This document shows positions 10,985-28,473 of a DNA stretch of 34,637 nt, one piece after another (position 1 is the first letter of the stretch; each line of letters starts with the position of its first letter). A model generated the notes under the pieces. It saw only the letters and a list, made by a program, of their open reading frames with translations. It was not told where the DNA came from and ran no database searches. Source of the stretch: Chryseobacterium gleum (lineage in GTDB: Bacteria > Bacteroidota > Bacteroidia > Flavobacteriales_D > Crocinitomicaceae). The position numbers were made by a program, and so were the translations under genes. The stretch covers positions 1-34,637 of the forward strand of contig CAMDAO010000017.1 of NCBI GenBank assembly GCA_945888595.1, given 5' to 3'.

Positions 10985-12406
10985 ATGAAAGAGAATCCAA
11001 TGACAAAACCACCTATTAATCAAACTATTACCAGTAAAAAAAGTTCATACAACGAGATTAAGATAGAAGTGTTTGAGCGACGAATTTTTTTAAAAATTCC
11101 GAAAAATGAAGCCGATATTGCATTTGTCCGTAAAATACAATTTGTGAAATGGGACAACAATTGGTTTCATTGGGTAATTCCCAACTATCCAGGCAACCTA
11201 TCTTTACTTCAAACCTACTTTAGTGGGAGAATAGATTCTTTTATTGAACACCAGAGCGAAATGGTAGAAATAAAGCCATTAGAGGAAAAAATACTAAAAA
11301 AGAGAGACGACGTTTTACTGATAAAAACAAAAAATAATCGATTAAGAATCCTATTTGGGTTTAATCAAAAACTACTTCAAACGATAAAAAAAATACCTTA
11401 TAATAGTTGGGATGGTAAAAACAAATGGTGGTCTATCCCTTATTCAGATTCATTTAAAGATCTTATATTGAAACAAATAGATGAGTTAAGTCTTTCTTTG
11501 ATCTATAAAGAAGAAGCCACAGAAGCGCCAAATACACACAAGCGCATAACTGCTTTTGATATTCCAAATTACAAGCAATGTCCGGAGGATTTTATCCTGA
11601 AATTAAAGGAATTGAGATACAGTTTAAATACCGAAAAGACCTATAAATTTGCCTTAGAAGATTATATCAATTACCATCATACAATTGACATTGACAAGCT
11701 AAACGAAAGTCATATTCAAACCTTCCTTAGACATCTTGTGATGGAGCGAAATGTATCTACTTCGTATCAAAACCAAGCCATCAATGCTGTAAAATTTTAT
11801 TATGAACGAGTATTAGGCGGTCAACGAAAAACGTATTTTATCGATCGACCAAAAAAAGAAAAAACATTACCAGTCGTTCTAAGCGAAGAAGAAATCATGC
11901 TTATTTTGCGCAGTGTAACGAATATAAAACACAAAGCAATTCTAATGATTATCTATTCTGCAGGCTTGCGTATTTCAGAATGCATTAATTTAAAAATAAA
12001 AGACATAGATTCTCATAGAATGCAAATTCGAGTTGAACAATCAAAAGGAAAGAAAGACCGTTACACCCTTTTAGCTACAAAAACTTTGCACGTGTTAAGA
12101 GATTATTTTAAAGAATATCGACCCAAAGAATTCCTATTTGAAGGACAAGATGGCGGATGCTATTCAGCGAGAAGCATTCAAAATATTTTCAGAGATGCTG
12201 TTGAAAGAGTAAAAATAAACAAGAAAGTAAGTGTTCATTCTCTCAGGCATAGTTTTGCAACTCATTTACTTGAGAATGGAACAAATTTAAGGTATATACA
12301 AAGTTTATTAGGGCACGCGAATAGTAAAACTACTGAAATATACACACATGTTACCACAAAGGGATTTGAAAATTTAAAAAGTCCTTTGGATAATTTGGAT
12401 ATCTAA
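10985..12406 (+). CDS. Tyrosine recombinase with N-terminal HARP-like repeats, probable cassette integrase
   Basis: The ATG at 10985 is taken in place of a TTG two codons earlier, giving 473 aa. In the 475-residue numbering from the TTG, a SAM-like N-terminal core-binding domain spans about 200-285 and the catalytic domain about 295-465. Catalytic residues are R331 (AGLRISEC), a Lys in SKGKKDR (356-359), H420 and R423 (HSLRHSFATHLLENG), H446 (LLGHANSKTT) and Y455 (IYTHV). The catalytic domain is XerC/D-like; I do not see the extra insertion before the HxxR patch that marks integron IntI proteins. Residues 25-90 and 110-175 form two related repeats (KWDNNWFHWVIP and SWDGKNKWWSIP), resembling the HARP domain of SMARCAL1-type annealing helicases. 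The gene lies 163 bp before the attI-like site and points the same way as the cassettes. Its role as the cassette integrase is inferred from this position. Confidence 0.88.
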   Translation: MKENPMTKPPINQTITSKKSSYNEIKIEVFERRIFLKIPKNEADIAFVRKIQFVKWDNNWFHWVIPNYPGNLSLLQTYFSGRIDSFIEHQSEMVEIKPLEEKILKKRDDVLLIKTKNNRLRILFGFNQKLLQTIKKIPYNSWDGKNKWWSIPYSDSFKDLILKQIDELSLSLIYKEEATEAPNTHKRITAFDIPNYKQCPEDFILKLKELRYSLNTEKTYKFALEDYINYHHTIDIDKLNESHIQTFLRHLVMERNVSTSYQNQAINAVKFYYERVLGGQRKTYFIDRPKKEKTLPVVLSEEEIMLILRSVTNIKHKAILMIIYSAGLRISECINLKIKDIDSHRMQIRVEQSKGKKDRYTLLATKTLHVLRDYFKEYRPKEFLFEGQDGGCYSARSIQNIFRDAVERVKINKKVSVHSLRHSFATHLLENGTNLRYIQSLLGHANSKTTEIYTHVTTKGFENLKSPLDNLDI

Positions 12407-12548
12407 AAAATAAATGTAATTTAGAAGAAAAATTGTAAAAAAGTATGAACCGACCGCTTAAGCTATTCATTTCTAAAGAGTCACAATCGGGAATAATCGG
12501 ATATCTAACTGATTTTGAATATATTAATAGAAATAGATATAGTGGATA

Positions 12549-12578
12549 TATACGCGCGTATAGCGACACGTTACAAGC
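12549..12578 (+). other. Single attI-like recombination site next to the recombinase gene
   Basis: A perfect 14-bp palindrome TATACGCGCGTATA (12549-12562) is followed by GCGACAC|GTTACAAGC, with the inferred crossover between C12569 and G12570. The GCGACAC|GTTA core is shared with the right side of the third attC-like site (21,895-21,904). GTTACAAGC is the exact reverse complement of GCTTGTAAC at 18928-18936, the start of the site that ends cassette 1. No 20-nt stem surrounds this site, so it looks like the unpaired primary site of the array and not another cassette end. Confidence 0.72.
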
Positions 12579-12590
12579 AACCCTATGACG

Positions 12591-12627
12591 ACAGTGATAA
12601 CATTAAACGACAGTGATAAAATGAACG
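12591..12627 (+). repeat. Short tandem repeat near the start of cassette 1
   Basis: ACGACAGTGATAA is followed 20 bp later by ACGACAGTGATAA and then by a partial third ACGACAG. The surrounding words (TAACATTAAA, ACGACAGAA) recur in altered form beside the hairpin before the arsenic operon (27887-27923), so this leader is shared by the two large cargo units. Confidence 0.6.
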
Positions 12628-12664
12628 ACAGAACAATTTTGGCAAAGCCATTTGGCTATCCTTC

Positions 12665-12730
12665 GCAAAAGCAAAAGAGCTGCAAAGCCAACGCACAAGC
12701 CAACGCGATTTGCAGCACATTTGCTTTTGC
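12665..12730. repeat. Second-family hairpin, copy 1 (before the ubiquitin-like operon)
   Basis: Arms 12665-12686 and 12709-12730 pair over 22 nt except for two A.A mismatches (AAAGAG facing CACATTT); the loop is 22 nt. CCAACGCAC occurs in the loop and CCAACCGCAC just after the right arm. Copies 2-4 have different stem sequences but keep the two mismatches and the CCAACGCAC/AACCGCAC words. Confidence 0.75.
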
Positions 12731-12832
12731 CCAACCGCACCAAGACCGTTCAGTATTAAACACATATTATTAACTTTGAAAAATTATTAGAAAAAATTAA
12801 ATGGAAGTTTTAAATGTTAAACTGCAGATAAA

Positions 12833-13801
12833 ATGAGCTATCAAAACAAATACGCAGTAAAAGCAAAAGCCCTCATCTACCAAGGTGAGTTGGACTACAT
12901 TTCAAAATGTGTTCTTGATTATCCCGACATTGAAACAGGCGGAGATTTATTTGGCTTTTGGACTTATTCAGGTTTTCCGGTTATTCAATATGTAATTGGG
13001 CCAGGGAAAAAAGCAAATCATCAAGTTGCCTTCTTCAATCAAGACATTGACTATTTGCGTGAAGTAGGAAATGCTTTGCGTAATACACACGGACTACAAC
13101 ACATTGGCGAGTGGCACTCACATCACAGGTTAGGACTTGCAGAACCAAGCGGACATGACATCACCACAGTTACGAAGGCAATTGATAATTACAACTTAGG
13201 AAAGTTTTTTTTGGTAATTACAAATGTTCACCAAAGTTCATCAGGCATCAACGGTTTTATGTTTACGAAACAACAAGGAAGAGTTTTTGATTACACTGGT
13301 TGGGTTGTTCTAAATGGAGAAAGTCCAATGAGAAATTCTTTTGACAAAGAATTTGATTCGCTTGTTTACAAACCACAAACACAACGAGCATCAATAGTTG
13401 ATTTGACAACAGCAAGTTTAGGAGAAACAGAATTTGTAAAACCTGAATACACTGCTGAATATTGGTTAAGCGACAAATCAAACCACAAGGTTCTAAAAAA
13501 TATAATTGACGGACTTAGTGACGGAGTTGAAGAAGTAAAAGTATTTCAGAACAACGAGGACAAATCAATTTACTTAATGTTTCAGCACAAGGAAAAAAAT
13601 TATTCCTTGTCATTCCCAACTGACTTTCCACAATCAAAGCCAGTGATAAAGGAACTATCAAATGAAGCGGAAACAATTATAGATGCTAACGGGCAAGAAT
13701 GGAATCCCGAAGAAGAAATTTCTAAATCAACAATTGCATTTACCGAAAATATTTTAGGAATTAAAAAGAAAACTTTCTTTCAAACTTTATTAAGCAAATA
13801 A
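12833..13801 (+). CDS. JAB/JAMM-domain protease with C-terminal E2-like domain
   Basis: The N-terminal JAB fold has E34 in ETGG and the metal site EWHSHH...SGHD (H95, H97, D109), the zinc-binding pattern of deubiquitinase-type metalloproteases. Residues about 195-290 contain YSLSFPTDFPQSKPVI, the strand-turn pattern of UBC/RWD folds, without a catalytic Cys. In bacterial ubiquitin-like operons such proteins process the modifier precursor or remove it from targets. It is the first gene of a tight operon: 1 bp separates it from the E2-like gene. Confidence 0.83.
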   Translation: MSYQNKYAVKAKALIYQGELDYISKCVLDYPDIETGGDLFGFWTYSGFPVIQYVIGPGKKANHQVAFFNQDIDYLREVGNALRNTHGLQHIGEWHSHHRLGLAEPSGHDITTVTKAIDNYNLGKFFLVITNVHQSSSGINGFMFTKQQGRVFDYTGWVVLNGESPMRNSFDKEFDSLVYKPQTQRASIVDLTTASLGETEFVKPEYTAEYWLSDKSNHKVLKNIIDGLSDGVEEVKVFQNNEDKSIYLMFQHKEKNYSLSFPTDFPQSKPVIKELSNEAETIIDANGQEWNPEEEISKSTIAFTENILGIKKKTFFQTLLSK

Positions 13802-13802
13802 A

Positions 13803-14228
13803 ATGACACCACAACGACTACAACACGAAACAGCAATTTTGGAAAAATACTTTCCTAAAAAATACAAGTTTGAAAACTTGAATTTAGCAAACGAACTTTT
13901 AGATGTTGGAGTAAAAACCCAATCAGGAAAAGTATATCGTTTAAATATCAGGTTGAAACCTGATTACCCAAACTCACTTCCTGAAGTATTTGTAGTTTAT
14001 CCATTGCCTTTGAGAAGGCATGATGGTTCTGCAATTGATGGTGCTTCACATGAATTGCATACGCTTTCAAATGATGGAGACAAAATACAAATCTGTCATT
14101 TCAAACCTAATAACTGGAATCCTATTCAATCACTTTACAAAATAGTTTTAAAAGCAAGAATTTGGCTTGAAGCATACGAAGGACATTTAAGAACAGGAAA
14201 ACCAGTTGACGATTATTTAAACAGTTAA
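13803..14228 (+). CDS. E2-like (UBC-fold) conjugation protein
   Basis: 141 residues. YRLNIRLKPDYPNSLPEVFV matches the UBC meander strands, followed by HTLSNDGDKIQICHF and NWNPIQSL. C98 in ICHF is the probable catalytic cysteine and W105-N-P follows as in many bacterial E2-like proteins. The eukaryotic HPN motif is not present. It is expected to receive the modifier from the E1-like protein encoded two genes downstream. Assignment rests on motif pattern and on its position between JAB and E1 genes. Confidence 0.75.
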   Translation: MTPQRLQHETAILEKYFPKKYKFENLNLANELLDVGVKTQSGKVYRLNIRLKPDYPNSLPEVFVVYPLPLRRHDGSAIDGASHELHTLSNDGDKIQICHFKPNNWNPIQSLYKIVLKARIWLEAYEGHLRTGKPVDDYLNS

Positions 14229-14241
14229 ACAATAAAATAAA

Positions 14242-14439
14242 ATGGAAAACGAAAACAAAGCAACAAATCAAGAGATAACTAATTCTCTTGAGCAAATGAA
14301 CAAGGGATTAAACAACAACAGCAATCAGTTGGTGTTTGACCCGACAACAGGAGAGTTTGTTGTTGCAAAGCCGAACCAACAAGTTTCGCCTGATGCAACT
14401 ACAATCAATTCAATAGCACAAGACGGATTCGCCAAGTAA
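14242..14439 (+). CDS. Small protein of the conjugation operon, candidate modifier
   Basis: 65 residues, Asn/Gln-rich and hydrophilic, with the segment LVFDPTTGEFVVAKP in the middle and the C-terminus IAQDGFAK. No ubiquitin beta-grasp pattern can be recognised, and the protein may be largely disordered. It lies 13 bp after the E2-like gene and 5 bp before the E1-like gene, where a modifier is often encoded. G62 followed by three residues could be exposed by the JAB protease. FxPxTGEF is repeated at the N-terminus of the Ig-like protein in the same operon. No function is established. Confidence 0.6.
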   Translation: MENENKATNQEITNSLEQMNKGLNNNSNQLVFDPTTGEFVVAKPNQQVSPDATTINSIAQDGFAK

Positions 14440-14444
14440 CGCCT

Positions 14445-15707
14445 ATGAAACCACTTGTATATGTTTACGAAGAACATCTTCGTGAACTGATTGCTGCTTC
14501 ACAAACAGATATAATCAGAGGCGTTGCCTTTGAATGGAAAGGTGAAAGCGTTTATCATGTTCACACAAAGTTTCCGAAGGTTGCACCTTCGGGCTATCCT
14601 TCAATTGCCTTTTTTAAAATTGAAAAAGACAAAGATGCATTTGAAAACTGCAAAAGCAGTTTTCAAATGGTTGCTGATAGCGTTCACAATCCTGATACTG
14701 GTTTTTATAATTCAGTTCTTGGTGTTTTCCTTTTCCTTGACAAAGAGAAACTTTATCAATGTGCGTTTAGAAAATCCGAAACTGGTATTGAAGAATGTGA
14801 AGTAAAATATGTTCCTGAAAAAAGTGAATTGTATTCACGAAGCAAAGGACTTATTGAAGTTGACATTTTGGAGAACAAGAATGTTTTGATAATTGGTTTA
14901 GGAAGTTTCGGTTCACAAATAGCCGTTGAACTTGCGAAAGCAGGTATTGGAAATTTTACATTGGTTGACTTTGACAGAGTTGAACTATCAAATATTTCAA
15001 GACACATTTGCGGAGTCAATGAATTAGGAAGATTAAAAACATTTGCGGTTCGTGATGCGATTCTTGTGAAAAATCCATTTGCAAAAATTGATACTTGTGA
15101 GATAGACATAAATGAAAAATTAGAGTTGCTTACGCAACTCATTCAAAAAACAGACATTGTAATTTGTGTTACAGATAATAACCGTAGTAGATTCAACATA
15201 AATGAAATTGCTTTTGGTTTAGACAAGCCAGTAATTTATGGCAGAGCAGTTACAAGAGCAGAAGGCGGTGATGTTTTCAAATTGAAAGGACATGCAAGCC
15301 CTTGTTATGCTTGCTTAGTAAATGAAAGCGGGCAAATGAAATTCGGAGGTGATGAAGAAATTTCTACAAAGAAACAAGCAACGGAAGCACTTCCAACATA
15401 CACTAATCAGAACGATATTAATGCTGTTGTGCAAGTTGGTTTATCATCAGACATTTTACCGATGTGCAACTTGATTGTAAAACTTTCATTGCTTGAACTT
15501 TCAAAAGGATTAAGCAGCGGAATAAATTCTCTTGAAAGCGAATTGACTTACGATTATTATTTCTGGGCAAACCGTAGAGAGAAAAATTATTTGAACTATC
15601 AGCCATTTAATAATTCCAAAATGCAACCAACCATTTTAAAATGGTTTGGTGCAAAAATTCCGACAAATCCTGATTGTTTTCTTTGTTCAACATTACAAAA
15701 CCAATGA
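14445..15707 (+). CDS. E1-like (ThiF/MoeB) activating enzyme
   Basis: 420 residues. The adenylation domain (about 140-350) has the nucleotide loop GLGSFG (151-156), VDFDRVELSNISRH with D175, D177, N183 and R186, and VTDNN near 244. Four cysteines, C287/C290 (PCYAC) and C411/C414 (DCFLC), form the zinc site typical of the family. The N-terminal 130 residues are an extra domain that I do not recognise. Expected reaction: ATP-dependent adenylation of the modifier C-terminus and transfer to a thiol. The stop overlaps the next start by 4 bp. Confidence 0.87.
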   Translation: MKPLVYVYEEHLRELIAASQTDIIRGVAFEWKGESVYHVHTKFPKVAPSGYPSIAFFKIEKDKDAFENCKSSFQMVADSVHNPDTGFYNSVLGVFLFLDKEKLYQCAFRKSETGIEECEVKYVPEKSELYSRSKGLIEVDILENKNVLIIGLGSFGSQIAVELAKAGIGNFTLVDFDRVELSNISRHICGVNELGRLKTFAVRDAILVKNPFAKIDTCEIDINEKLELLTQLIQKTDIVICVTDNNRSRFNINEIAFGLDKPVIYGRAVTRAEGGDVFKLKGHASPCYACLVNESGQMKFGGDEEISTKKQATEALPTYTNQNDINAVVQVGLSSDILPMCNLIVKLSLLELSKGLSSGINSLESELTYDYYFWANRREKNYLNYQPFNNSKMQPTILKWFGAKIPTNPDCFLCSTLQNQ

Positions 15708-16489
15708 ACGAAAATATTCGCTTAGACGATAGCACGGTGTTTAATCCGCAGACAGGAGAGTTTGGAACTCTACCTCAAATTTTGCTATTCTCTACTGACA
15801 AGAATATTTTAACTGACGAAACACCAGCAATAGTAAATTGGACAGTATCAAACGCAACTGTAATAAAACTAAACAATGAAGTAGTTGAACCGACTGGAAC
15901 AAGAGAGTTTCATACAAGTGAACCTTTGACACTTACCCTATCCGCTTCAAATGATGTTGGTGCGGCAGAACCTAAGGCAATTACAATTGACATTGACAGA
16001 CGAATTCCTGTTATTCACTTTTTCAAACCGAATGTTCCAGTTGCAATAAAAGGTTCTCCCGTAGTATTGAATTGGAATGTTGAAGGAGCATACAAAATTG
16101 AAATTGGTGGAATAGGAATAGTGCCAAGCACTTCATCAAAAACAATAACATTAGGCGACAACGGAGTATTTACTCTCATCGCTAAAAATTATTTTGGTAT
16201 TCAAACAGAAGTAACAGCATCTGTAACAGTTTTCCCTACTCCCATTTTAGAAAGATTAATTGTTCCAATTCCTGACTTCAACAGAAAACTAAATTTGAAT
16301 CCACTTCATATTGAAGCACCAATTATTGATGTTTCAATTAAACGAAGTTACTCACTTGAAAAACCCAACTTTACAAAACAGTCATTTGACTTGCAAACAA
16401 CAAGGGCAATGCACAAACCAAAATATTCATACTTCAATCTGTCAGAAGTATTTCACCGAATAACAAAATCATTAAGAAACACGACATGA
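15704..16489 (+). CDS. Ig-like protein of the conjugation operon
   Basis: The ATG at 15704 overlaps the E1 stop (ATGA) and is preferred to an upstream in-frame start. The 261 residues begin MNENIRLDDSTVFNPQTGEFG, sharing the FNPQTGEF/FDPTTGEF motif with the small protein. Two beta-rich Ig-like segments follow (about 25-100 with VNWTVSNATVIKLN; about 105-180 with VLNWNVEGAYKIEIGG). The basic C-terminal 70 residues look unstructured. There is no signal peptide, so it is cytoplasmic. It could be a target, adaptor or sensor; the function is unknown. Confidence 0.65.
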   Translation: MNENIRLDDSTVFNPQTGEFGTLPQILLFSTDKNILTDETPAIVNWTVSNATVIKLNNEVVEPTGTREFHTSEPLTLTLSASNDVGAAEPKAITIDIDRRIPVIHFFKPNVPVAIKGSPVVLNWNVEGAYKIEIGGIGIVPSTSSKTITLGDNGVFTLIAKNYFGIQTEVTASVTVFPTPILERLIVPIPDFNRKLNLNPLHIEAPIIDVSIKRSYSLEKPNFTKQSFDLQTTRAMHKPKYSYFNLSEVFHRITKSLRNTT

Positions 16490-18264
16490 AAAAGCCAAAC
16501 CTTCTTCAAACCTTTTTTATTGCCTGTTCGGGTGCTGACAGAGACATAATGTTAGAATGTCCTTCTGAATACAACAAGTATTCAGGAATTGGAGCAACAA
16601 TTTTTTTAACTGCTGCACTTGCAGTTTTTACTGGTGGTTATGCTTTGAATTTTGTTTTTGATAATGCTCCTCTTTCTATTCTCTTCGGTATTCTTTGGGG
16701 GATTATCATTTTCAATCTTGACAGATACATTGTATTAAGTTTAAGAAAAGAAAAGATTCCAACTAAGACAGACATTTTAAGAGCACCATCAGAACAAGAG
16801 AGAACAGAACTTAAATCTGAAAGAAGCAGATTGTTGTGGAATCAGGCACTCATGGCTTCGCCAAGATTTTTAATTGCACTTGTAATTGCAATTACAATTT
16901 CAAAACCTCTTGAACTTCGTTTGTTCAGCACAAAGATTTTAAAAGAACATGAGAGAAGCTCTAAAGTTGAAACGGATAAATTTGATAAAGATGAAAACGA
17001 TAGGGTTGCAGGTTTCAACAAACAACTTCAAGACCTTAACGGAAAAGAAGAAAACGAAAAGACAGCGATTTATTCTAACAATCCAATTTACAAGGAAGCA
17101 ATTACAAAATTGCCAGAGATTCAAACTGGAATTGAAAGCAAAGAGAGTTTGATAAAAACCAACAACGGTATCATTGAAAAAAATAAATATTTAGAAACTG
17201 GTAGCAGGGAAAAACAAAATCCAATTAGTAAAGAGTGGGAAACAATCTACTACAAGTATTGGGTTAAGAATGCAACAGCAAGAGAAAAGGATGCTGAAAA
17301 TGTTCGCTTGAACAATGAGAAAAAACAACTTGCAACAGAAAAAACTACTTACACTTCAAAAAAAGACACTGTTGAAAAACAGCTATTAGCAAAAACAGTT
17401 TCAATTGCAAGCCAGTATGATTTACAACGAGCACCAATTAAGCAAAGCATTGAAGATTTAAAGGAAACATATCCTATAAGGAAAGCAAAATATATTTCAA
17501 CTGTCCAGCTTAATCCCGACATTCTTGAACGAATGCAATATTTGTCAAACATCTCAACATGGTTCAATCCTGTTTGGTGGGCAAGTTTTGTAATCACTCT
17601 TTTATTCATGCTTCTTGAAACAGCACCAGTTGTAGTAAAACTTCTAACTAAAAGAGGACCGTATGACGATAAACTTGATAGAATTGAATATGAGCATTAC
17701 ATAAATGAACAAGAAATTATTTCAAGGTGGAATACTAAAATAAATGTGTTGCTTGAAAAGGCAAGAGAAGCCGCAAGGTTAGAAGGTGATGTTTTTATCA
17801 AGATTGAACAACAACGCCTTGACCATGAATTAAAAAATAACCAAACAATTCTTGACGACTTAGCAGGTAAACAGGAAACACTTGCGAAAATGGCAATTGA
17901 AAAATGGTATGAGGAAGAACTTAGAAAAAGTAAATCGCAAGACACAACTGAAAGCAATCAAAGCAATCAGAATGGTCAGCATAATCAATTCAAACTTGAA
18001 GATACATTTTGGAAGTTAGTAAACTCACCAAGCGATATTCAATATTTCTTTAGAAATGGTTCACCAATAAGCAACGAATTATTGTACCGTGAAGACGGCA
18101 AATTGACATTGGGTAAATGGAATTATGGAGAAGATAAAACAGAAATTGCTGTTGATATTTTTGAAGAAAAAAGAAATTATAAAATTGAATCTTTGTCTAA
18201 CAATTCTTTGAAGTTGAAAGAGAGGGGAACTACTGAATTAATTGAATTTGAAAAAACATCATAA
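16486..18264 (+). CDS. DUF4407 membrane protein with coiled coil and C-terminal extension
   Basis: 592 residues. ADRDIMLECPSEYNKYSGIG and the next two hydrophobic segments (about 30-55 and 60-80, ending NLDRYIV) are typical DUF4407. A third membrane segment lies around 127-145. Charged coiled coil covers about 150-330, a fourth membrane segment (WFNPVWWASFVITLLFMLL) about 362-385, and a second coiled coil 400-490. The last 90 residues form an extra beta-rich domain (LGKWNYGEDKTEIAVDIFEE). It overlaps the Ig-like gene by 4 bp. A membrane effector or sensor for the conjugation system is possible but not shown. Confidence 0.78.
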   Translation: MKKPNLLQTFFIACSGADRDIMLECPSEYNKYSGIGATIFLTAALAVFTGGYALNFVFDNAPLSILFGILWGIIIFNLDRYIVLSLRKEKIPTKTDILRAPSEQERTELKSERSRLLWNQALMASPRFLIALVIAITISKPLELRLFSTKILKEHERSSKVETDKFDKDENDRVAGFNKQLQDLNGKEENEKTAIYSNNPIYKEAITKLPEIQTGIESKESLIKTNNGIIEKNKYLETGSREKQNPISKEWETIYYKYWVKNATAREKDAENVRLNNEKKQLATEKTTYTSKKDTVEKQLLAKTVSIASQYDLQRAPIKQSIEDLKETYPIRKAKYISTVQLNPDILERMQYLSNISTWFNPVWWASFVITLLFMLLETAPVVVKLLTKRGPYDDKLDRIEYEHYINEQEIISRWNTKINVLLEKAREAARLEGDVFIKIEQQRLDHELKNNQTILDDLAGKQETLAKMAIEKWYEEELRKSKSQDTTESNQSNQNGQHNQFKLEDTFWKLVNSPSDIQYFFRNGSPISNELLYREDGKLTLGKWNYGEDKTEIAVDIFEEKRNYKIESLSNNSLKLKERGTTELIEFEKTS

Positions 18265-18443
18265 TGGGTTGGAGATTTAGAAAATCATTTGGGTTCGGAC
18301 CAGTTCGGACAACTTTCTCTCAAAGAGGAGTTGGAAAAAGTATTGGCTTCTTTGGTTTTCGTTGGGGAGTTACGGCAGACGGCAGAAAGTATTGGAGTTT
18401 CGGTATTCGTGGGACAGGTTTGTATTACATCAAATATTTGTAG
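18264..18443 (+). CDS. Small DUF4236 protein
   Basis: 59 residues starting MGWRFRKSFGFGPVRTTFSQ and ending IRGTGLYYIKYL. The MGxRFRKS...SxxGxxxSxGxxG...GTGLYY pattern is that of DUF4236 proteins. The start overlaps the DUF4407 stop (TAATG). It is easily missed because longer frames overlap it. Function unknown. Confidence 0.78.
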   Translation: MGWRFRKSFGFGPVRTTFSQRGVGKSIGFFGFRWGVTADGRKYWSFGIRGTGLYYIKYL

Positions 18444-18445
18444 TT

Positions 18446-18745
18446 ATGGACAAAATCATAAAAGTTGTTTTAGCCGTTCTCTTTTTTATTTGCTTACTTG
18501 AAATGCCTTATGGTTTTTATCAGTTTGTAAGGTTTGCAGGACTAGTTGGCTTTGCAATTCTTGCCTATCAAGCAAACCAACAAGGCAGACAAACAGAAAT
18601 GATAATTTACGTTGGACTTGCTTTGTTATTTCAACCGTTTTTTAAAGTAGCCCTCGGCAGACAAATGTGGAATATTGTTGACATTGTAGTAGGACTTAGT
18701 TTAATCATAAGCATTTTTCTAAAGCCTAAATCCCAAAGCAAATGA
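18446..18745 (+). CDS. Small membrane protein, DUF6804-like
   Basis: 99 residues from the ATG at 18446, two bases after the DUF4236 stop. Membrane segments are about 5-22, 29-43, 50-68 and 74-92. The wording MPYGFYQFVRF and LLFQPFFKVALGRQMWNIVD is characteristic of small proteins I know as DUF6804. It is the last gene of the conjugation operon. Function unknown. Confidence 0.7.
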   Translation: MDKIIKVVLAVLFFICLLEMPYGFYQFVRFAGLVGFAILAYQANQQGRQTEMIIYVGLALLFQPFFKVALGRQMWNIVDIVVGLSLIISIFLKPKSQSK

Positions 18746-18788
18746 CATTAGTTCTAACACGACCGACAGCGTTCCAAAAGCCCACGCA

Positions 18789-18855
18789 TTTGCACTCACA
18801 TTTGCTTTTTTGCAACCGCACAAACCAACCCGAAAAAAGCAAAAGAGAGTGCAAA
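18789..18855. repeat. Second-family hairpin, copy 2 (after the ubiquitin-like operon)
   Basis: Arms 18789-18813 and 18832-18855 pair with the same conserved mismatches as copy 1 (CACATTT facing AAAGAG), but in the opposite order relative to the cargo: the CACATTT arm comes first here. AACCGCAC follows the first arm and CCAACGCAC the second. Copies 1 and 2 therefore face each other across the 6-kb operon. Confidence 0.72.
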
Positions 18856-18927
18856 CCAACGCACCCAGACAATGCAATAATTCATTGCAAACATGGGCGG
18901 ACACTGCTTCGGACGGACAGAAGGGCA

Positions 18928-19063
18928 GCTTGTAACAGCGGGTTTAAGAAATTGGCGGTTCAGTGCTCCGCAGACACATTTGTGGTTAATCAAACATTGG
19001 TTCTCCGCATCAACATTTGTGGTGAAAATCGCCAACTTCTTAAACCCGCAAAACGTTAGTGGC
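18928..19063 (+). repeat. attC-like site 1 (end of cassette 1)
   Basis: Opens with GCTTGTAAC; arms 18938-18957 and 19030-19049 form a 20-nt stem with one mismatch, A18951.C19036 at stem position 14. The loop is 72 nt. The right side is GC-AAAAC|GTTAGTGGC, with the inferred crossover before G19055. The loop contains two near-repeats of CTCCGCA...ACATTTGTGGT. Confidence 0.85.
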
Positions 19064-19153
19064 AAGTCAATAAAAACCAAACACCGTCCGACTTAATAGT
19101 ATCGTAACAGTTAAATTAAATATGATAGACACCGAAAATTAAATAGTATTCTT

Positions 19154-20716
19154 ATGAAAAAAAACATTCTCTTATCAATCTTTTTAATTGCGATAGTCCT
19201 TAAATCACAAGGAGCAATTCGCTATGTCACGCCATTAGGAGCGGGTGCTTTAAACGGCACAAGTTGGGCAAATGCTTTTCCTGGTACTTCGTTACAAACT
19301 GCTATTACTTCATCAGGCATTGGAGATGAAGTATGGGTTGCAGCAGGAACATATTATACAACAACAACGACTAGTCGTAGTATTTCGTTTAGTATGAAAA
19401 ATGATGTCTCAATCTACGGAAGTTTTACAGGGACAGAAACCTTATTATCACAAAGACTACTCACAACGGGCTTGACAAGTATATTGAGTGGCGAAATTGG
19501 AGCAATAGGAATAGGCGATAATAGTTATCATGTGATACACAATACTGCCTTAAACAATACTGCAATTATTGATGGCTTTATCATCAGAGAAGCAAATGAT
19601 AATAGAGTGGTTTCATATACAAATGGACTTGGCGGTGGAATATTCAATCAAGGAAGTGGTGCAGGAGGAGTATGTAGCCCTACAATTAGAAATTGTATTA
19701 TTACCAATAATCGAGCTGTATTTGGTGGAGGTATTTTTAATGATGGTTATAATGGAGGGAACGCTTCTCCAATAATTTCTAACTGTATAATCTCCAACAA
19801 TACCGCTACAAGCGGTGGTGGTGGGCTTGACAACTTTGGAGTTGCTGGCATAGCAAGCCCAACTATAACAAATTGTGTAATTTATAATAACACAGCTACT
19901 CAAAGAGCTGGCGGTATGTATTGTTGGGGTGGTAATAGTGGCAATGCAAATCCAACTGTTCTAAATACAGTATTTGCAAACAATACGGCTGTTGATGGTG
20001 GAGGGGTGGTTTCAGATAGATTAAATGAAAGTGGAGGTGGTAGTTCGGGTAATAGCAATCCCAATTTTAGAAATTGTATTTTTTGGGGAAATACGGCATC
20101 TGGGACCGGCCCTCAATTTTTCATTTTAGGCGGAGCAACTTTCGTAGCAACTTATTCTGACATTAATCTCACAGGACAACTTTCCCCTCATGTTGTTTCA
20201 GGTCCTGCTACTGGAAATATTATTACAAATCCTTTATTTTCAAATATTGCATTAGGTGTTGGTGTAGATGGAAATTGGATGACTACTGATGATGGATTGC
20301 AATTACAAAGTTCATCTCCGTGTATTAATGCAGGAGACAACACAGGAGTGCCTTTAACAGATATTTTGACAAATAACAGAATACTCAATTCTATTGTTGA
20401 CATGGGGGCTTATGAATTTAGCTCAACGTTGACAGTAGTTACAGAAATTGATAAACAAAATATCGGTATTGTTTTGTTTCCTAATCCAACAAGTAACATA
20501 CTTAACATTACCTTTAAGAGTTCAGAAACCGACAATATTGTTTTAGCCATTTTCGACATCAATGGACGACTTGTGAATACTATACACCAAGGACAAATCG
20601 CAATAGGAACTTACAATTATCAAGTTGATTTATCGCAACAAAAATGTGGAATTTATTTTTTAACACTCAAGACGACCAAACAAGAATATACACAGAAAAT
20701 AATGCGGACAGAATAG
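19154..20716 (+). CDS. Exported parallel beta-helix protein with T9SS sorting domain
   Basis: 520 residues. It has a signal peptide (MKKNILLSIFLIAIVLKSQG), then AIRYVTPLGAGALNGTSWANAF, the usual start of right-handed beta-helix proteins. Repeats such as PTIRNCIITNNRAVFGGGIFN, PIISNCIISNNTATSGGGG and PTITNCVIYNNTA form the helix (about 140-330). The C-terminal 85 residues (VLFPNPTSNILNITF... to ...YFLTLKTTKQEYTQKIM) are a type A T9SS sorting domain, so it is probably secreted or surface-attached. It is the only gene of cassette 2. Helix proteins of this kind often bind or cut polysaccharides; no catalytic motif was identified. Confidence 0.85.
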   Translation: MKKNILLSIFLIAIVLKSQGAIRYVTPLGAGALNGTSWANAFPGTSLQTAITSSGIGDEVWVAAGTYYTTTTTSRSISFSMKNDVSIYGSFTGTETLLSQRLLTTGLTSILSGEIGAIGIGDNSYHVIHNTALNNTAIIDGFIIREANDNRVVSYTNGLGGGIFNQGSGAGGVCSPTIRNCIITNNRAVFGGGIFNDGYNGGNASPIISNCIISNNTATSGGGGLDNFGVAGIASPTITNCVIYNNTATQRAGGMYCWGGNSGNANPTVLNTVFANNTAVDGGGVVSDRLNESGGGSSGNSNPNFRNCIFWGNTASGTGPQFFILGGATFVATYSDINLTGQLSPHVVSGPATGNIITNPLFSNIALGVGVDGNWMTTDDGLQLQSSSPCINAGDNTGVPLTDILTNNRILNSIVDMGAYEFSSTLTVVTEIDKQNIGIVLFPNPTSNILNITFKSSETDNIVLAIFDINGRLVNTIHQGQIAIGTYNYQVDLSQQKCGIYFLTLKTTKQEYTQKIMRTE

Positions 20717-20723
20717 ATGACCA

Positions 20724-20859
20724 GCCACTAACAGCACCTACAAAAAATTGGCGGTTCAGTGGTTAAATCAACCATTGTGCTTCCTATCAAGTTCAGAGCT
20801 GGCAGACAGTTTTGTGCTTCGAAATCGCCAACTTCTTGCAGCTGCAAAACGTTGTGCGA
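20724..20859 (+). repeat. attC-like site 2 (end of cassette 2)
   Basis: Opens with GCCACTAAC; arms 20734-20753 and 20826-20845, loop 72 nt, then GC-AAAAC|GTTGTGCGA. The stem carries the conserved A.C mismatch at position 14 plus three others (positions 4, 7 and 11), making it the most worn of the five stems. Confidence 0.82.
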
Positions 20860-20900
20860 CATTTTGACTGAACGAAACGAAAAACAGAAAAATTTAAAGA

Positions 20901-21761
20901 ATGAATGAAAATATTTCTCCAATTATTCAAGCATCAGAATTGCTGAATTTATATAAATCTGAAAATTTAATTATTGTTGATGTTAGCAATGGAAAAAATG
21001 CAAAGTTAAATTATGACGCAAAACATTTAGAAGGAGCAATATTTGTAGATTTAAACACTCAACTTGCAGAAATTAAAAATGATTTGTCAATTGGCGGAAG
21101 ACATCCATTACCCAAAATTGAAAATTTCGCAAAAACCTTATCAAATCTTGGAGTTTCTCCAAAAAGTCAAGTTGTGATTTATGATGACAAAAATGGCTCA
21201 AATGCGTCAGCTAGATTTTGGTGGATGTTGAAATCAATTGGTCACGAAAAAGTTCAAGTTCTAAATGGCGGAATTCAAGAAGCAGAAAAGAATAATTTTC
21301 CATTAAGTTCAAAAACTGAAAGTATCAACAAAACTGAATTATATAAATTTGACAATTGGAAATTAAAAATTGCCGAAATAGAAGAAGTTGAAAAAGTTTC
21401 ACAAACCGAAAATCATATTGTAATTGACGTTCGAGATGTTGAACGCTACAATGGAGAAACCGAGCCAATTGATTTAATTGCCGGACATATTCCTGGAGCA
21501 ATAAATGTTCCATTTACTGAAAATTTAGACGAAAACGGTTTGTTTTTATCTCCAAATTTGCTAAAACAGAAATATGAAAAAGTATTTGGAAATACTAAAA
21601 CTGAAAATATAATTGTTCATTGTGGTTCTGGTGTTACAGCGTGTCACTCAATTTTAGCAATCGCATATGCTGGTTTGGAAATTCCAAAACTTTATGTAGG
21701 TTCGTGGAGTGAATGGAGCAGAAATAATAAATTAATAGAAATAAAAACTGAAAACATTTAA
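20901..21761 (+). CDS. Sulfurtransferase, 3-mercaptopyruvate type (double rhodanese)
   Basis: 286 residues with two rhodanese domains. The first (about 8-135) is inactive; the second (about 155-286) has the persulfide cysteine C241 in HCGSGVTAC. The CGSGVTA loop points to mercaptopyruvate, not thiosulfate (which usually has CRKGVTA), as donor. No signal peptide, so cytoplasmic. It is the only gene of cassette 3 and would move as a self-contained metabolic gene. Confidence 0.88.
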   Translation: MNENISPIIQASELLNLYKSENLIIVDVSNGKNAKLNYDAKHLEGAIFVDLNTQLAEIKNDLSIGGRHPLPKIENFAKTLSNLGVSPKSQVVIYDDKNGSNASARFWWMLKSIGHEKVQVLNGGIQEAEKNNFPLSSKTESINKTELYKFDNWKLKIAEIEEVEKVSQTENHIVIDVRDVERYNGETEPIDLIAGHIPGAINVPFTENLDENGLFLSPNLLKQKYEKVFGNTKTENIIVHCGSGVTACHSILAIAYAGLEIPKLYVGSWSEWSRNNKLIEIKTENI

Positions 21762-21770
21762 AAAAAACGA

Positions 21771-21909
21771 TCGCACAACAGCCGTTTCACGAAATTGCGG
21801 GGTTTGGGATTTATCAGAATTGGTAATTTTTGAAACTAAATTTTGTCTATATTTGTAATCAAAAGTGTTGAAAATCCGCAACTTCGTGAAGCGGCGACAC
21901 GTTAGCAGT
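21771..21909 (+). repeat. attC-like site 3 (end of cassette 3)
   Basis: Opens with TCGCACAAC; arms 21781-21800 and 21876-21895, loop 75 nt, then GACAC|GTTAGCAGT. Stem bases differ from sites 1, 2 and 5 in many paired positions, yet pairing is kept with one G.T pair and the conserved A.C mismatch at position 14. The spacer GACAC equals that of the attI-like site. The loop is unlike the other four and contains a promoter-like box. Confidence 0.83.
21848..21855 (+). promoter_or_regulatory. Candidate -7 box inside the loop of attC-like site 3
   Basis: TATATTTG, a full match to TAnnTTTG, preceded by TTTTG and TTTTTG words that could form a -33 element, although the spacing is not ideal. It points into cassette 4, whose gene begins 105 bp downstream. 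Confidence 0.4.
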
Positions 21910-21959
21910 AAGTGAAATAGAATACAAAAACATAATTATTTAATGAAATAACAACAAAA

Positions 21960-22781
21960 ATGAATAAACAACGAAATTTTGACCCTTTACAAAAGGAAAA
22001 ACTAGGGGAATATGTATACGCATTGCGAGACCCAAGAGATAAGAAAATATTTTATGTTGGACAGGGCATCAAAGATAGGGTATTTGAACATTTTAATGAA
22101 GCACAGAGCAGTCTAAATTCTGCTATACCCTTCAATCAAATGAGTAGTAAAGTTATTCGCATATTAGACATTTGGAATAATAACGAGGATGTGGAATGGA
22201 TTATTTTAGCCCATAATTTACCTTCTAATAACAATGTTGCTGATTTCGTTGAATCCGCAATCTTTGATGGCCTTTCTGAATCGCAAAATGGAGAAACTCT
22301 GAACGAACAAACGCCTCCAAGGTCTTCAAGGCTTTTACCTGAAGACTTAGAGGCAATGGCAGCAGAATTTGTTTATCCAACAACAGCACACTCTCATGTA
22401 TTTGTTTTTCCAATTCAAAGCGCCTTATATTATGGTTTAACTCCTTATAATGCAACAAGATCAACATGGGGCATTCATAGTCAGTACCAAACACTTAATC
22501 CAGCCTTTGCTGTTGGATTGAAAAATTCTATATCCAAAGGAAGTTTTGAAGTATCGGCATGGAATAATGTGACGGGAACAGGAAAACAAGAATTCAACTC
22601 ACCAAATCATCCAAATCCTAACGACTATACCCCACTTTTAAACAAAAACTGGAACAATGTACTTGCAATTGCAAAAGGCTTTTGGCAAAGAGGGGGTTAT
22701 TTAATCGTTGAATTTGATGGCAATGGTAGCTTCAGAATTATAAGAGGATCGAAAGATAAAAATTGGCATCATTGTATTTAA
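21960..22781 (+). CDS. GIY-YIG nuclease-domain protein
   Basis: 273 residues. The N-terminal GIY-YIG domain (about 12-115) has YVYALRDPRDKKIFYVGQG, a conserved Arg in DRVFEHF, and the Glu in VESAIFDGL as the likely metal ligand; it resembles the LEM-3-like branch. The C-terminal region (about 125-273) has FAVGLKNSISKGSFEVSAWN, reminiscent of EVE/PUA-like folds, but I cannot assign it firmly. It is the only gene of cassette 4. A DNA-cutting role, possibly in defence or repair, is inferred from the domain only. Confidence 0.72.
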   Translation: MNKQRNFDPLQKEKLGEYVYALRDPRDKKIFYVGQGIKDRVFEHFNEAQSSLNSAIPFNQMSSKVIRILDIWNNNEDVEWIILAHNLPSNNNVADFVESAIFDGLSESQNGETLNEQTPPRSSRLLPEDLEAMAAEFVYPTTAHSHVFVFPIQSALYYGLTPYNATRSTWGIHSQYQTLNPAFAVGLKNSISKGSFEVSAWNNVTGTGKQEFNSPNHPNPNDYTPLLNKNWNNVLAIAKGFWQRGGYLIVEFDGNGSFRIIRGSKDKNWHHCI

Positions 22782-22813
22782 AATAAACTAATACGAAAGA
22801 CAATCTAACACCT

Positions 22814-22949
22814 ACTGCTAACAGCGGTTTGGCGTAATGGCGGGTTCAGTGCTTCGTATAATGGTTTTGTGGTTGGTTCAAGGTAGTTCTTCGATTGAAC
22901 TATTGTGCTAAAAGTCTGCCACTACGCCAAGCCGCAAAACGTTAGCGGT
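22814..22949 (+). repeat. attC-like site 4 (end of cassette 4)
   Basis: Opens with ACTGCTAAC; arms 22824-22843 and 22916-22935, loop 72 nt, then GC-AAAAC|GTTAGCGGT. The stem sequence (GCGGTTTGGCGTAATGGCGG) differs strongly from the others while pairing is kept, again with A.C at position 14. Confidence 0.84.
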
Positions 22950-23046
22950 CATGCTAAGACATGAAGCAAGTAATCACGAAAAAATAAATTTTTAAACAGA
23001 TTAAACCTTTTTGTTTTTTTTAAGTCCAAATTAAAAATAATTAAAC

Positions 23047-24822
23047 ATGAAAAAAAACTACACCCTTTTTTTATCATTTATTTCAATGATAGCTTATTCC
23101 CAAAACCCAACAATAACAATAGACATAGGCAATGTGGTCACTTCAGACTCCCTAATGAAACCAATACTTGGTGTAATTTCAGGACCAGATGCAAATTATA
23201 ATTCTGCAAATGCCAATCTTACAACTCAGTTTCAAAATATTGGGGTAACAAGCATTAGAAATAATGATTATTCTGACGACAGACTTGACATGGATTTAAT
23301 GTTTAATTGTGGAGGGGCTACTTATCCGAGTTGGGGTTCATGTAGTCCAACAGTAAGTGCCAATTATAATTTTACGGCTAGTGATATACAATATAGCAGT
23401 TATGTTAGTGGAGGGTTTGAACCTTTTTTAAGACTAGGTAGCGAAAATCCGCCCACTTCAGGTCCTTTTGTTAAAGATAATATTGGTCCGATAAATTCTA
23501 CAGAAGAAACAAATTGGATTATAGCAGCTGATACTGTAGCAAAACATTATTCAAATTTTCCTGGTGGAAACGGTGGATTACAATATTTAAATGTTTGGAC
23601 AGAATGGCCAAACTCATTTAGCTTTTGGCCAAGACCGAATTCGGAATTTTATCCATTTTTTACTTCGGCAGTTTCTCAATTAAAAACGAGCCACCCAACC
23701 AAAAAAGTAGGTGGGCCAGGAATGTTAAGTAGTTATATGTGTAAAGGCTTGCCTGTTGTAGCTAATGAACCATATCAACTTGTTAATTACATGTATCAAA
23801 ACAATGTAAAACCTGATTTTTTCACTTTTCATGTATTCAGTAGCAATCCAATGAATTACTATAATGCATCAAAACAATACAGCGATATGCTTTTAGGTGT
23901 TGGCAGCTTTAATGGAGTACCATGGGCAGGTACTGGTTTTTTTGATACAACAGAATTAATTATTGACGCATGGGGGAATACAAATAATCCAACAAATGAA
24001 TTTGGGGCATCTACTGGAACATATAACCCGACAGATATGGATAAATATTTGGCAAAAAAAGAAGGCTCTACTGCGTTTTTAGCAGCATGGGCAGTTTTGC
24101 AAAGAGCCAATGTTGAGCGCGGGTATTATTATCGGTCTGGAGACATGGGACCGACAACATCAGCAGCTTTAGCAAATGGAGCATCTCTTGGTTTGTTTTA
24201 TGGAGATGGCTCATATAAAAGAGTAGCGTATGCTTTCAAAATGTGTGCTAACTTATATTCCAACTACAATAAAATATTAAACACTTCATTAATAAATGTT
24301 ACAAATCAAAATGATTCAATCTTTTGTTTATCGGGGATGTCTATAAATGGAACAAAGGCATTGTTAATAGCAAATACGACTATGAAAAATATAGATGTTA
24401 ATTTAACAGTAAACGGATCATCCATAGTTTCTGCAAATTATTCATCTATAGAATACTATTTGATTGATAATACAAGTGATGGAACTAATCCACAAGTTTG
24501 GAATCCCTCCATAACAAATACTATTGCATCTCAAACAGGCGTTTTGGTAGTTCTAACTCCAATAAATGTAGTTAGTGTTGCCGAAAACAGAACAAGTTCC
24601 GACATAACTGTATATCCAAATCCTACAAACGGTGACGTAAACATTATACTACAAAATCAAAATCTGGTTAGTACTAAAATTTACAATTTAATTGGTGAAT
24701 TGATTCAAGAAGTTTATACATCTGAATTTTCAATTTCCAATTTGCCTAATGGCATATACTTTTTACAAATCCAAACCAATAATTCGACTTACACTAGTAA
24801 AATAATAAAAAATAATCCTTAA
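23047..24822 (+). CDS. Exported glycoside hydrolase-like protein with T9SS sorting domain
   Basis: 591 residues: signal peptide (MKKNYTLFLSFISMIAYSQ), a TIM-barrel-like domain (about 25-420) and a T9SS sorting domain (about 515-591, VYPNPTNGDVNIIL...NLPNGIYFLQIQT). LRLGSENPP, YLNVWTEWPNSFSFW, KVGGPGM and PDFFTFHVFSS recall GH39-type beta-xylosidases, in which a Glu after a strand-4 N-x-W/P-E pattern is the acid/base. The Glu in VWTEWPN is a candidate. Substrate unknown. First of two genes in cassette 5, 3 bp before the next. Confidence 0.7.
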   Translation: MKKNYTLFLSFISMIAYSQNPTITIDIGNVVTSDSLMKPILGVISGPDANYNSANANLTTQFQNIGVTSIRNNDYSDDRLDMDLMFNCGGATYPSWGSCSPTVSANYNFTASDIQYSSYVSGGFEPFLRLGSENPPTSGPFVKDNIGPINSTEETNWIIAADTVAKHYSNFPGGNGGLQYLNVWTEWPNSFSFWPRPNSEFYPFFTSAVSQLKTSHPTKKVGGPGMLSSYMCKGLPVVANEPYQLVNYMYQNNVKPDFFTFHVFSSNPMNYYNASKQYSDMLLGVGSFNGVPWAGTGFFDTTELIIDAWGNTNNPTNEFGASTGTYNPTDMDKYLAKKEGSTAFLAAWAVLQRANVERGYYYRSGDMGPTTSAALANGASLGLFYGDGSYKRVAYAFKMCANLYSNYNKILNTSLINVTNQNDSIFCLSGMSINGTKALLIANTTMKNIDVNLTVNGSSIVSANYSSIEYYLIDNTSDGTNPQVWNPSITNTIASQTGVLVVLTPINVVSVAENRTSSDITVYPNPTNGDVNIILQNQNLVSTKIYNLIGELIQEVYTSEFSISNLPNGIYFLQIQTNNSTYTSKIIKNNP

Positions 24823-24825
24823 AAT

Positions 24826-25914
24826 ATGCAAGTGAAAAAATATTTTATACCCAAAATTATACTTACAGTTTTATGCTTGTTTAATCTTAACGCTCATGCT
24901 CAACTCTCTGGATTGGTAATTACAGGAACACCAGATAGTCCGAGTGGAGCAACTTGGACATACAATGCAACAATTGGTTCAGTTGTTTACGATTTGAAAG
25001 GATTAATTTATAAACCTTTGGGTACTGGAAATTTCCCAGCAGTTATAATTAATCATGGCACTGGTGGAAATACGGATGTAAATGGATATAGTGATAAAGT
25101 AGCCAAAGAAATGGTAACGTGGGGCTATGTTACTATTGCAACAAATTATTGTCACATGGGTACGAGTATGGCTTTTCCATGTGGTTCGCCAGGGGTTTGT
25201 ACAGGAATGACAGATTGGGGAGCTAGTTCGAATAATTTTTTACGTGCAATGAAAGTGTGGGATATTCTTGCGTCACTTACATATGTTGATACAAATTGTA
25301 TTGCAACTTTTGGTCATAGCAGAGGATCTTTTTTGACTACTGGATTAGCTGCAAATTATTCAGATAAATTTAATTGTGCGGGACATACGGATGGTGGAGT
25401 AGCTATTCCAGACCAAATAACAATGCCAACTTTGGTGATGGCAAACGATGTTATCATTCCATATATTTTGCACCATGGTGATTCAAGTGTTCAGGTTCCA
25501 ATAATAAACGATGACAATTTCGATTCAATTTTAACCCAAAATGGTGTAATTCATGACTATTATGTTTACACAGGTTACGTCCATTCGGATATGCCACATG
25601 ATTCATTGGTTTATGTTAGAACGCAAACTTTTTTTAATCAATACATTTGTAATACAACGACAGGGTATATAGACAATAATGTAATTTTTTCAAGGCTTAT
25701 TTTTTTTCCTAATCCCGCATCTATCGCCATCCAGTTAGAAATTCATGAAAAAAGTAATATGACAATTTATAACTTCACTGGACAAATCGTAATTTCAAGA
25801 ATAATATCTCCTAAGGAAAAAGTTGATATTTCGAATTTAGAAAATGGCGTCTATTTTATCTCACTATCAGAAGGAGAAAAAAATAAAACCGCAAAATTGA
25901 TTATTGCAAATTGA
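24826..25914 (+). CDS. Exported alpha/beta hydrolase with T9SS sorting domain
   Basis: 362 residues with a signal peptide ending near NAHA. The alpha/beta hydrolase domain (about 28-275) has the oxyanion-side INHGTGG and the nucleophile elbow GHSRGS with S165; YVHSDMPHDS may supply the catalytic His. The domain resembles PET-hydrolase/dienelactone-hydrolase-like exported esterases. The C-terminal 75 residues (IFFPNPASIAIQLEI...NLENGVYFISLSEG) form a T9SS sorting domain. Cotranscribed with the glycoside hydrolase-like gene, so the pair may act together on decorated polysaccharide. Confidence 0.8.
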   Translation: MQVKKYFIPKIILTVLCLFNLNAHAQLSGLVITGTPDSPSGATWTYNATIGSVVYDLKGLIYKPLGTGNFPAVIINHGTGGNTDVNGYSDKVAKEMVTWGYVTIATNYCHMGTSMAFPCGSPGVCTGMTDWGASSNNFLRAMKVWDILASLTYVDTNCIATFGHSRGSFLTTGLAANYSDKFNCAGHTDGGVAIPDQITMPTLVMANDVIIPYILHHGDSSVQVPIINDDNFDSILTQNGVIHDYYVYTGYVHSDMPHDSLVYVRTQTFFNQYICNTTTGYIDNNVIFSRLIFFPNPASIAIQLEIHEKSNMTIYNFTGQIVISRIISPKEKVDISNLENGVYFISLSEGEKNKTAKLIIAN

Positions 25915-25937
25915 CAATTGCATTACACACAGCACGA

Positions 25938-26067
25938 ACCGCTAACAGCACCTACAAGAAATTGGCGGTTCAGTGGTTCGTATGACAGTTTTGTGGTTAA
26001 TCAAACATTCGTTCTTCGTATGAACATTTGTGGTGAAAATCGCCAACTTCTTGTAGCTGCAAAACGT
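25938..26067 (+). repeat. attC-like site 5 (end of cassette 5), interrupted by an IS
   Basis: Opens with ACCGCTAAC; arms 25948-25967 and 26041-26060, loop 73 nt, then GC-AAAAC|GT followed at once by the IS end CAGGCTGTG. The stem has the conserved A.C at position 14 and a C.C mismatch at position 4. The missing right core, CGTTAGCGGC, lies at 27861-27870 on the other side of the IS. Confidence 0.82.
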
Positions 26068-27859: not shown

Positions 27860-27861
27860 CC

Positions 27862-27937
27862 GTTAGCGGCAAGGCTAGGGGACGCGCTAACATCAAATTT
27901 TCGTGCTGACATTGGACGACAGAAAAGCCAACGCTTC
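27862..27937 (+). other. Start of a possible sixth cassette (orphan right core)
   Basis: GTTAGCGGC is the right core of attC-like site 5, displaced by the IS. Within 30 bp lies GCGCTAAC, a 7-of-8 complement of the core, but no 20-nt stem follows. No GCCGCTAAC partner was found to the end of the window. The words CTAACATCAAA and ACGACAGAAAAGCC resemble the start of cassette 1. Confidence 0.5.
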
Positions 27938-28002: not shown

Positions 28003-28094
28003 CCCAACCGCACCCAAAGCCCACCCACCACCCGACAATTTGGACGACAAGAAGAAGTTTGAAAATTTAATTGCTCAATTCAAAATATTTATCG

Positions 28095-28102: not shown

Positions 28103-28120
28103 CAATTTAAATATGAAGTT

Positions 28121-28453: not shown

Positions 28454-28473
28454 CCAAACAAATAAAAAGCAAA

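Follow-up and report, generated by a model that had tools for sequence, protein, structure and literature searches.

The window analyzed here, that is, the whole stretch of 34,637 nt read on the forward strand of contig CAMDAO010000017.1 (assembly GCA_945888595.1), contains a gene for a tyrosine recombinase, which is followed on the same strand by an attI-like site and a series of gene cassettes with attC-like hairpins. An insertion sequence on the opposite strand interrupts the series ahead of an arsenic-resistance operon. The recombinase gene and the regions coding for its domains are as follows.

10985..12406, plus strand: ORF of the HARP-type tyrosine recombinase (473 aa from ATG 10985; TTG 10979, giving ORF 10979-12406, is also a possible start)
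11057..11248, plus strand: HARP-like repeat 1 (about aa 25-88), supported by the family HARP profile (E 7.3e-6 in its own genome), by hhalign to repeat 2, and by AlphaFold2
11285..11512, plus strand: HARP-like repeat 2 (about aa 101-176), supported by PF07443 (21.4 bits on the segment), by 4o66 (E 1.4e-4), and by Foldseek (4o66, probability 0.85)
11588..11818, plus strand: SAM-like core-binding domain (PF13495, E 2.3e-17)
11879..12358, plus strand: catalytic domain without the IntI insertion (PF00589 and alignment with IntI)

Catalytic part of the recombinase

The Pfam matches of the recombinase are Phage_integrase (PF00589, E 4.5e-40) and SAM_4 (PF13495, E 2.3e-17). All expected catalytic positions are filled, the candidate residues being R329, K354 or K357, H418, R421, H444, and Y453, and the catalytic arginine, lysines, and tyrosine are invariant or nearly so across 35 relatives. 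Among solved structures, the integron integrase 2a3v ranked first (E 9e-39) and archaeal XerA next, and the AlphaFold2 model of the recombinase gave an identical ranking. The score against the IntI family TIGR02249 was 229.2 bits and did not reach the cut-off of 265, and that against the XerA-type family NF040815 narrowly reached its cut-off (221.9 vs 220 bits). The initial annotation had described this protein as a recombinase combining an XerC/D-like catalytic domain with two HARP-like repeats. The tyrosine recombinase and the repeats were borne out, but the XerC/D label was not: the catalytic part scores closer to IntI and archaeal XerA and is properly designated as IntI/XerA-like.

HARP-like repeats in the N-terminal region

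The two N-terminal segments are indeed related to each other, as had been supposed from their sequences. They carry the motifs WDNNWFHWVIP and WDGKNKWWSIP, and aligning the profiles of the two repeats by hhalign gave a probability of 97% and an E value of 5.6e-11. The Pfam HARP profile PF07443 matched only the second repeat of the full recombinase (17.8 bits, E 0.0025) and gave 21.4 bits on the repeat 2 segment alone, both below the gathering score of 25. At E ≤ 0.01, it matched 11 of 47 relatives, with a best E value of 1.7e-6. When a profile of the two-repeat family was compared with solved structures, the sole match at E < 0.01 was 4o66, the HARP domain of SMARCAL1 (E 1.4e-4), and the profile of the second repeat matched 4o66 at E 0.001.

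The AlphaFold2 model of the repeats (pLDDT 88) consists of two strand-strand-helix-strand-strand-helix units. A Foldseek search with this model gave a modest match to 4o66 (probability 0.85, E 0.095, 33% identity over 58 columns), and the XPB damage-recognition and MutS-beta domains scored about equally. Both the Pfam score below the gathering threshold and this modest match count against the platform reading presented below. The HARP, XPB damage-recognition, and MutS-beta domains probably constitute one fold group, and domains of the HARP, XPB, and MutS types are structure-specific DNA binders. Judging from the AlphaFold2 model, the Foldseek match, and the profile match to 4o66, the N-terminal region appears to adopt a HARP-like and not an unrelated fold, in agreement with the initial annotation. 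The recombinase resembles SMARCAL1 HARP (PF07443; 4o66) in sequence profile and probably in predicted fold; it differs in that the domain is fused to a tyrosine recombinase, where SMARCAL1 has an SNF2 motor, remains below the Pfam gathering score, and occurs in tandem copies. Each relative has one, two, or three HARP-like units. PF07443 was nearly blind to HARP recombinases as a genome probe, finding them in 3 of 198 genomes, and the family's own HARP profile was therefore needed. A literature search, with preprints and most subscription papers outside its reach, found no description of a HARP domain combined with a tyrosine recombinase.

Absence of the IntI insertion and phylogenetic position

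The additional domain of IntI, with its patch III insertion in the catalytic domain, has been called unique to and required for integron recombination (PMC9668308) and essential to integron function (PMC8138268). In an alignment of all HARP recombinases with nine in-frame IntI proteins, IntI1 among them, the stretch corresponding to this domain comprised 28 residues in the HARP recombinases (30 in Flavihumibacter) vs 59 in IntI. The lack of an IntI-type insertion, already noted in the initial annotation, is accordingly real. A phylogeny of the catalytic domain against IntI had been proposed as a check. In the maximum-likelihood tree, 15 IntI proteins formed a single clade (100/99) with no HARP recombinase inside, which places the recombinase of the window outside IntI. 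The same tree did not recover the HARP recombinases as one clade, and this counts against the platform reading presented below.

The attI-like site and the cassette array

The features downstream of the recombinase gene are as follows.

12541..12578, plus strand: attI-like site, consisting of palindromic ATATACGC/GCGTATA, then GCGACAC, then GTTACAAGC
12571..19055, plus strand: cassette 1, with JAB (12833), E2-like (13803), E1/ThiF (14445), ORF 15674, DUF4407 (16486), and DUF6804 (18362); GTTACAAGC pairs with GCTTGTAAC
18928..19063, plus strand: attC-like site S1
19056..20851, plus strand: cassette 2, secreted repeat protein with a type IX sorting tail; GTTAGTGGC pairs with GCCACTAAC of S2
20724..20859, plus strand: attC-like site S2
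20852..21901, plus strand: cassette 3, rhodanese sulfurtransferase; GTTGTGCGA pairs with TCGCACAAC of S3
21771..21909, plus strand: attC-like site S3
21902..22941, plus strand: cassette 4, GIY-YIG protein like the defense protein PD-T4-3 (padloc E 7e-19); GTTAGCAGT pairs with ACTGCTAAC of S4
22814..22949, plus strand: attC-like site S4
22942..26066, plus strand: cassette 5, GH39-like protein and alpha/beta hydrolase, each bearing a type IX tail; GTTAGCGGT pairs with ACCGCTAAC of S5
25938..26066, plus strand: attC-like site S5, its R' box broken by the insertion sequence
26068..27860 (ends approximate), minus strand: insertion sequence with transposase fragments, separating S5 from the next cassette
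27863..32262, plus strand: presumed cassette 6, arsenic-resistance operon, which opens with GTTAGCGGC after the insertion sequence

The attI-like site is located 166 nt past the last recombinase codon and has its core GTT at 12570, and the exchange point would lie after G12570. Here, GTTACAAGC pairs with GCTTGTAAC, the R'' box of S1, and by this pairing the attI-like exchange point falls immediately after the recombinase gene and cassette 1 spans 6.5 kb. In each of the five attC-like hairpins, a long stem is flanked by two outer boxes, the first with AAC at its end and the second with GTT at its start; in S5, the latter box is cut short by the insertion sequence. The first bases of a circular cassette must pair with R'' of its own downstream site, and all five cassettes of the window passed this test with 9-nt matches. 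The genes of presumed cassette 6 code for ArsR, a DUF6428 protein, a phosphatase-like protein, an ACR3-type transporter, and a metallophosphatase; the cassette's own 3' site was not found.

Beyond the window, R' of attI matched R'' of the first site in at least 6 of 7 nt at 16 of 23 loci, vs 3.2% of controls. The matching R' was located 18-252 nt 3' of the gene, often after a palindromic GCGTATA motif. The closest relative (L005) shows 97% nucleotide identity, which is confined to positions 10895-12573 around the recombinase. This identity stops three bases beyond the attI G (G^TTA); the two loci have different cassettes and different left flanks.

Several further elements were noticed. An inverted attI-like motif, GCGTATATCCACT, is present upstream of the recombinase gene (about 10898), with similar ones upstream in several relatives, and its position suggests that the platform itself may be mobile or autoregulated. 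The insertion sequence exists in a larger copy that splits S5 (26068-27860) and in partial copies at 32895-33223 and 34048-34484. A second, hairpin-forming repeat family (GCAAAAGC...CAACGCAC) occurs near cassette starts and ends, at 12665-12743, 18775-18865, 27966-28015, and 32323-32353. Other contigs of the same genome contain a fragment of a second HARP recombinase at a contig end, as well as more sites (G000:C173:3189-3716, C24:16429-16572, and C171:2806-3689).

Behavior of the sites across arrays

A plain scan for hairpins bounded by AAC and GTT detected two of the five sites; it was too coarse and was replaced by covariance models. The model built from the five window sites finds arrays beside relatives. 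A cultured carrier, Flavobacterium enshiense (L058), has an array of 11 sites. When R' was compared with R'' of the next site, 69% of 39 consecutive pairs were perfect over the six variable bases; this was the case for 5% when the two boxes of the same site were compared and for 4% of the other pairs. Two further arrays, one with 20 sites in 35 kb and the other with 18 in 37 kb, gave 84% perfect pairs vs 3% (p 7e-17). The stems covaried at 22 of 25 pairs, with a score of 0.60 vs 0.15 in shuffles and a collapse when slid, and the five window sites alone showed covariation in 10 stem pairs. The bottom strand was predicted to be more stable in 52 of 64 sites (p 1.3e-8). In the site alignment A3, there is one invariant A.C mismatch on the top strand, which corresponds to G.T on the bottom strand. 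In a crude count over the two extra arrays and the VEB site described below, A.C was the best mismatch in 24 of 39 sites, and its invariance in A3 may thus be partly due to ascertainment. Given the R'/R'' pairing between neighbors and the pairing with attI R', the five hairpins behave as attC sites, as the initial annotation had implied by calling them attC-like.

Co-occurrence of sites and recombinases in Bacteroidota

Among 392 Bacteroidota genomes, the HARP profile was matched in 73, the sites were found in 186, and classical IntI scored above the cut-off in 107. Sites were present in 68 of the 73 genomes with the HARP profile vs 118 of the 319 others (odds ratio 23, p 7e-20), and they were rarer in genomes with IntI (odds ratio 0.51). 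Nearly all sites within 30 kb of a recombinase (44 of 46) were downstream of it and on the same strand. The five genomes that matched the HARP profile and had no sites comprised three with recombinases and two in which the match, judged from its translation, was to another kind of protein (in one case an SNF2-type helicase, in the other a large unrelated protein). The three recombinases (L111, L113, and L114), from genomes without a recognized site, may use diverged sites; these genomes also count against the platform reading. Apart from exceptions such as these three, recombinases without such arrays do not commonly carry the HARP domain; the opposite result would have spoken against the original idea.

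Sites were also found in 118 genomes without a HARP profile match, 90 of which have no classical IntI either, and this counts against the platform reading; these 90 may reflect incomplete assemblies, orphan arrays, or diverged enzymes. The genome of the window itself has no classical IntI above the search threshold. None of these sites occurred in the flanks, which are short, of twelve Bacteroidota IntI loci (L088-L099). In phages, among the matches listed, only the catalytic part was matched. IntegronFinder surveys found almost no complete integrons in Bacteroidetes (PMC9024848), and the proportion of genomes with IntI above the cut-off in our sample (107 of 392) is far above what that complete-genome survey suggests.

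A proposed integron-like platform with a HARP-type recombinase

We propose that the recombinase serves as cassette integrase in an integron-like platform and that its HARP-like domains most likely handle the folded bottom strand; we assign this reading a probability of about 0.83. A gene-capture platform of this kind, run by a HARP-type recombinase, is well supported at the level of sequence by the architecture of the recombinase, the missing insertion, the attI, the covarying attC hairpins, the cassette boundaries given by R'/R'' complementarity, and the association across genomes. From these features we infer catalysis by the recombinase, a single-stranded substrate, and a role for the HARP domains. 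The recombinase would join folded attC-like sites with the attI-like site located 18-252 nt 3' of its gene, cleaving GTT after the G, and circular gene cassettes would thereby be inserted, excised, and reordered. The one to three HARP-like domains would most likely take over the recognition or stabilization of the folded bottom strand. Since the hairpin-reading insertion of IntI is absent, another part of the recombinase should do its job, and the most economical idea, toward which we lean, is that the HARP domains replace this insertion in reading the folded site.

The platform resembles that of IntI (TIGR02249; VchIntIA, 2a3v; IntI1) in several respects: IntI is the top-scoring solved relative and the best fold match, the recombinase is located at an attI beside an array of attC cassettes, the exchange triplet is GTT, and the hairpins are biased to the bottom strand. 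In contrast to IntI, the recombinase lacks the additional domain, scores 229 vs 265 bits, falls outside the IntI clade, and bears extra N-terminal HARP-like domains; moreover, its attI is 3' of the gene, with the array running in the gene's own direction. The archaeal-type XerA (NF040815; 5hxy) has a similar catalytic part without the insertion, and its cut-off is narrowly reached, but the HARP recombinase has multi-site arrays instead of one dif site and carries the N-terminal HARP domains. Because the three tested features of IntI (the additional domain, the TIGR02249 score, and the clade) fail, the platform is to be regarded as an integron variant and not as an IntI member. In our judgment, it is a new and widespread variant of a type undescribed in the literature searched.

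A more far-reaching version is tentative, and we rate it at slightly less than even: this would be a second, independently evolved integron class, in which tandem HARP domains read the folded attC, strand choice depends on the near-fixed A.C/G.T mismatch together with a 1-against-5-nt internal loop, and Bacteroidota serve as the reservoir from which pathogens obtained the blaVEB-1 cassette and the tet(X3) region. The variant itself may have originated either independently or by loss of the insertion.

The alternative that survives best, although we consider it rather unlikely, accepts the recombinase as the cassette integrase and assigns the HARP domains to binding attI, to aiding strand annealing or loading, or to regulating the gene. 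It accords with the variable HARP copy number (one to three) among relatives and with the inverted attI-like motif upstream of the gene, and the part of PMC9371921 that cites EMBO Rep 2011 links HARP in SMARCAL1 to annealing-helicase activity. However, the insertion known to read hairpins in IntI is absent throughout the HARP recombinases, and HARP-type, XPB, and MutS domains are binders of specific DNA structures.

An improbable alternative is that the hairpins are normal attC sites on which a classical IntI encoded elsewhere in the genome acts, the adjoining HARP recombinase being unrelated. Of the 392 Bacteroidota genomes, 107 do have classical IntI above the cut-off, and a class 1 integron uses an attC of this type (blaVEB-1). 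Nevertheless, no IntI was above the search threshold in the genome of the window, and the HARP recombinase gene is immediately followed by an attI whose R' matches. The twelve Bacteroidota IntI loci without such sites, a weak argument alone in view of their short flanks, point in the same direction. Classical IntI as the enzyme serving the sites was rejected on the genome counts, the sites being fewer in IntI genomes (odds ratio 0.51).

That an ordinary Xer-like resolvase or element integrase stands by chance beside repeated terminators or other repeats is hardly credible: the NF040815 cut-off is met (221.9 vs 220 bits) and hairpins behind genes can be terminators, but the R'/R'' cassette logic, the attI, the co-occurrence, the orientation, and the recurrent strand-asymmetric mismatch are not terminator features, and presence in about a fifth of the genomes together with linkage to arrays disfavors chromosome dimer resolution at a single dif.

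Links to resistance genes in pathogens and implications

The proposed platform has counterparts beside resistance genes of pathogens. In Acinetobacter plasmids (L085:6690-8200, FJ012881; also L084, L086, and L087), tet(X3) is preceded by a remnant of a HARP-type recombinase, and the order is the 'xerD' remnant, the same attI-like sequence as in the window, tet(X3), and a truncated attC-like half site. The 'xerD' of this xerD-tet(X3)-res module is a 78%-identical piece of the HARP recombinase family (residues 238-475) and is likewise followed by this attI-like sequence, but it is truncated, and the downstream attC is cut by the res/ISCR2 junction. The remnant is entirely without the HARP region, which counts against the platform reading. 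A search of plasmids with the HARP region and linker (210 aa) gave no match, so that only truncated copies are seen in plasmids, and the start of tet(X3) itself showed no pairing with R''. For this tet(X) environment, an earlier study had obtained no match in Flavobacteriaceae (PMC7494873). In a class 1 integron, the site model matched exactly one site, the attC of blaVEB-1 (L100:2079-2219, minus strand, 48.8 bits), and none of the other attC sites of that array. R'' of the blaVEB-1 attC pairs with the start of its own cassette. These arrangements suggest that tet(X3) and blaVEB-1 may derive from arrays of the present kind.

Integrons are defined and searched for via IntI, and a platform with another recombinase would therefore be missed. 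If the proposed reading is true, about a fifth of the sampled Bacteroidota genomes harbor a system for gene capture that current definitions do not cover, and a natural comparison becomes available for studying how tyrosine recombinases come to act on folded single-stranded DNA. The 'xerD' next to tet(X3) would then be accounted for, as would the source of the blaVEB-1 cassette, and the route of these resistance genes would become testable. The JAB, E2-like, E1/ThiF, and DUF4407 genes in one cassette (12833-18264) constitute a ubiquitin-like conjugation operon of a kind listed among phage-defense systems, and with this operon as the first cassette, the arrays also look like carriers of phage-defense genes.
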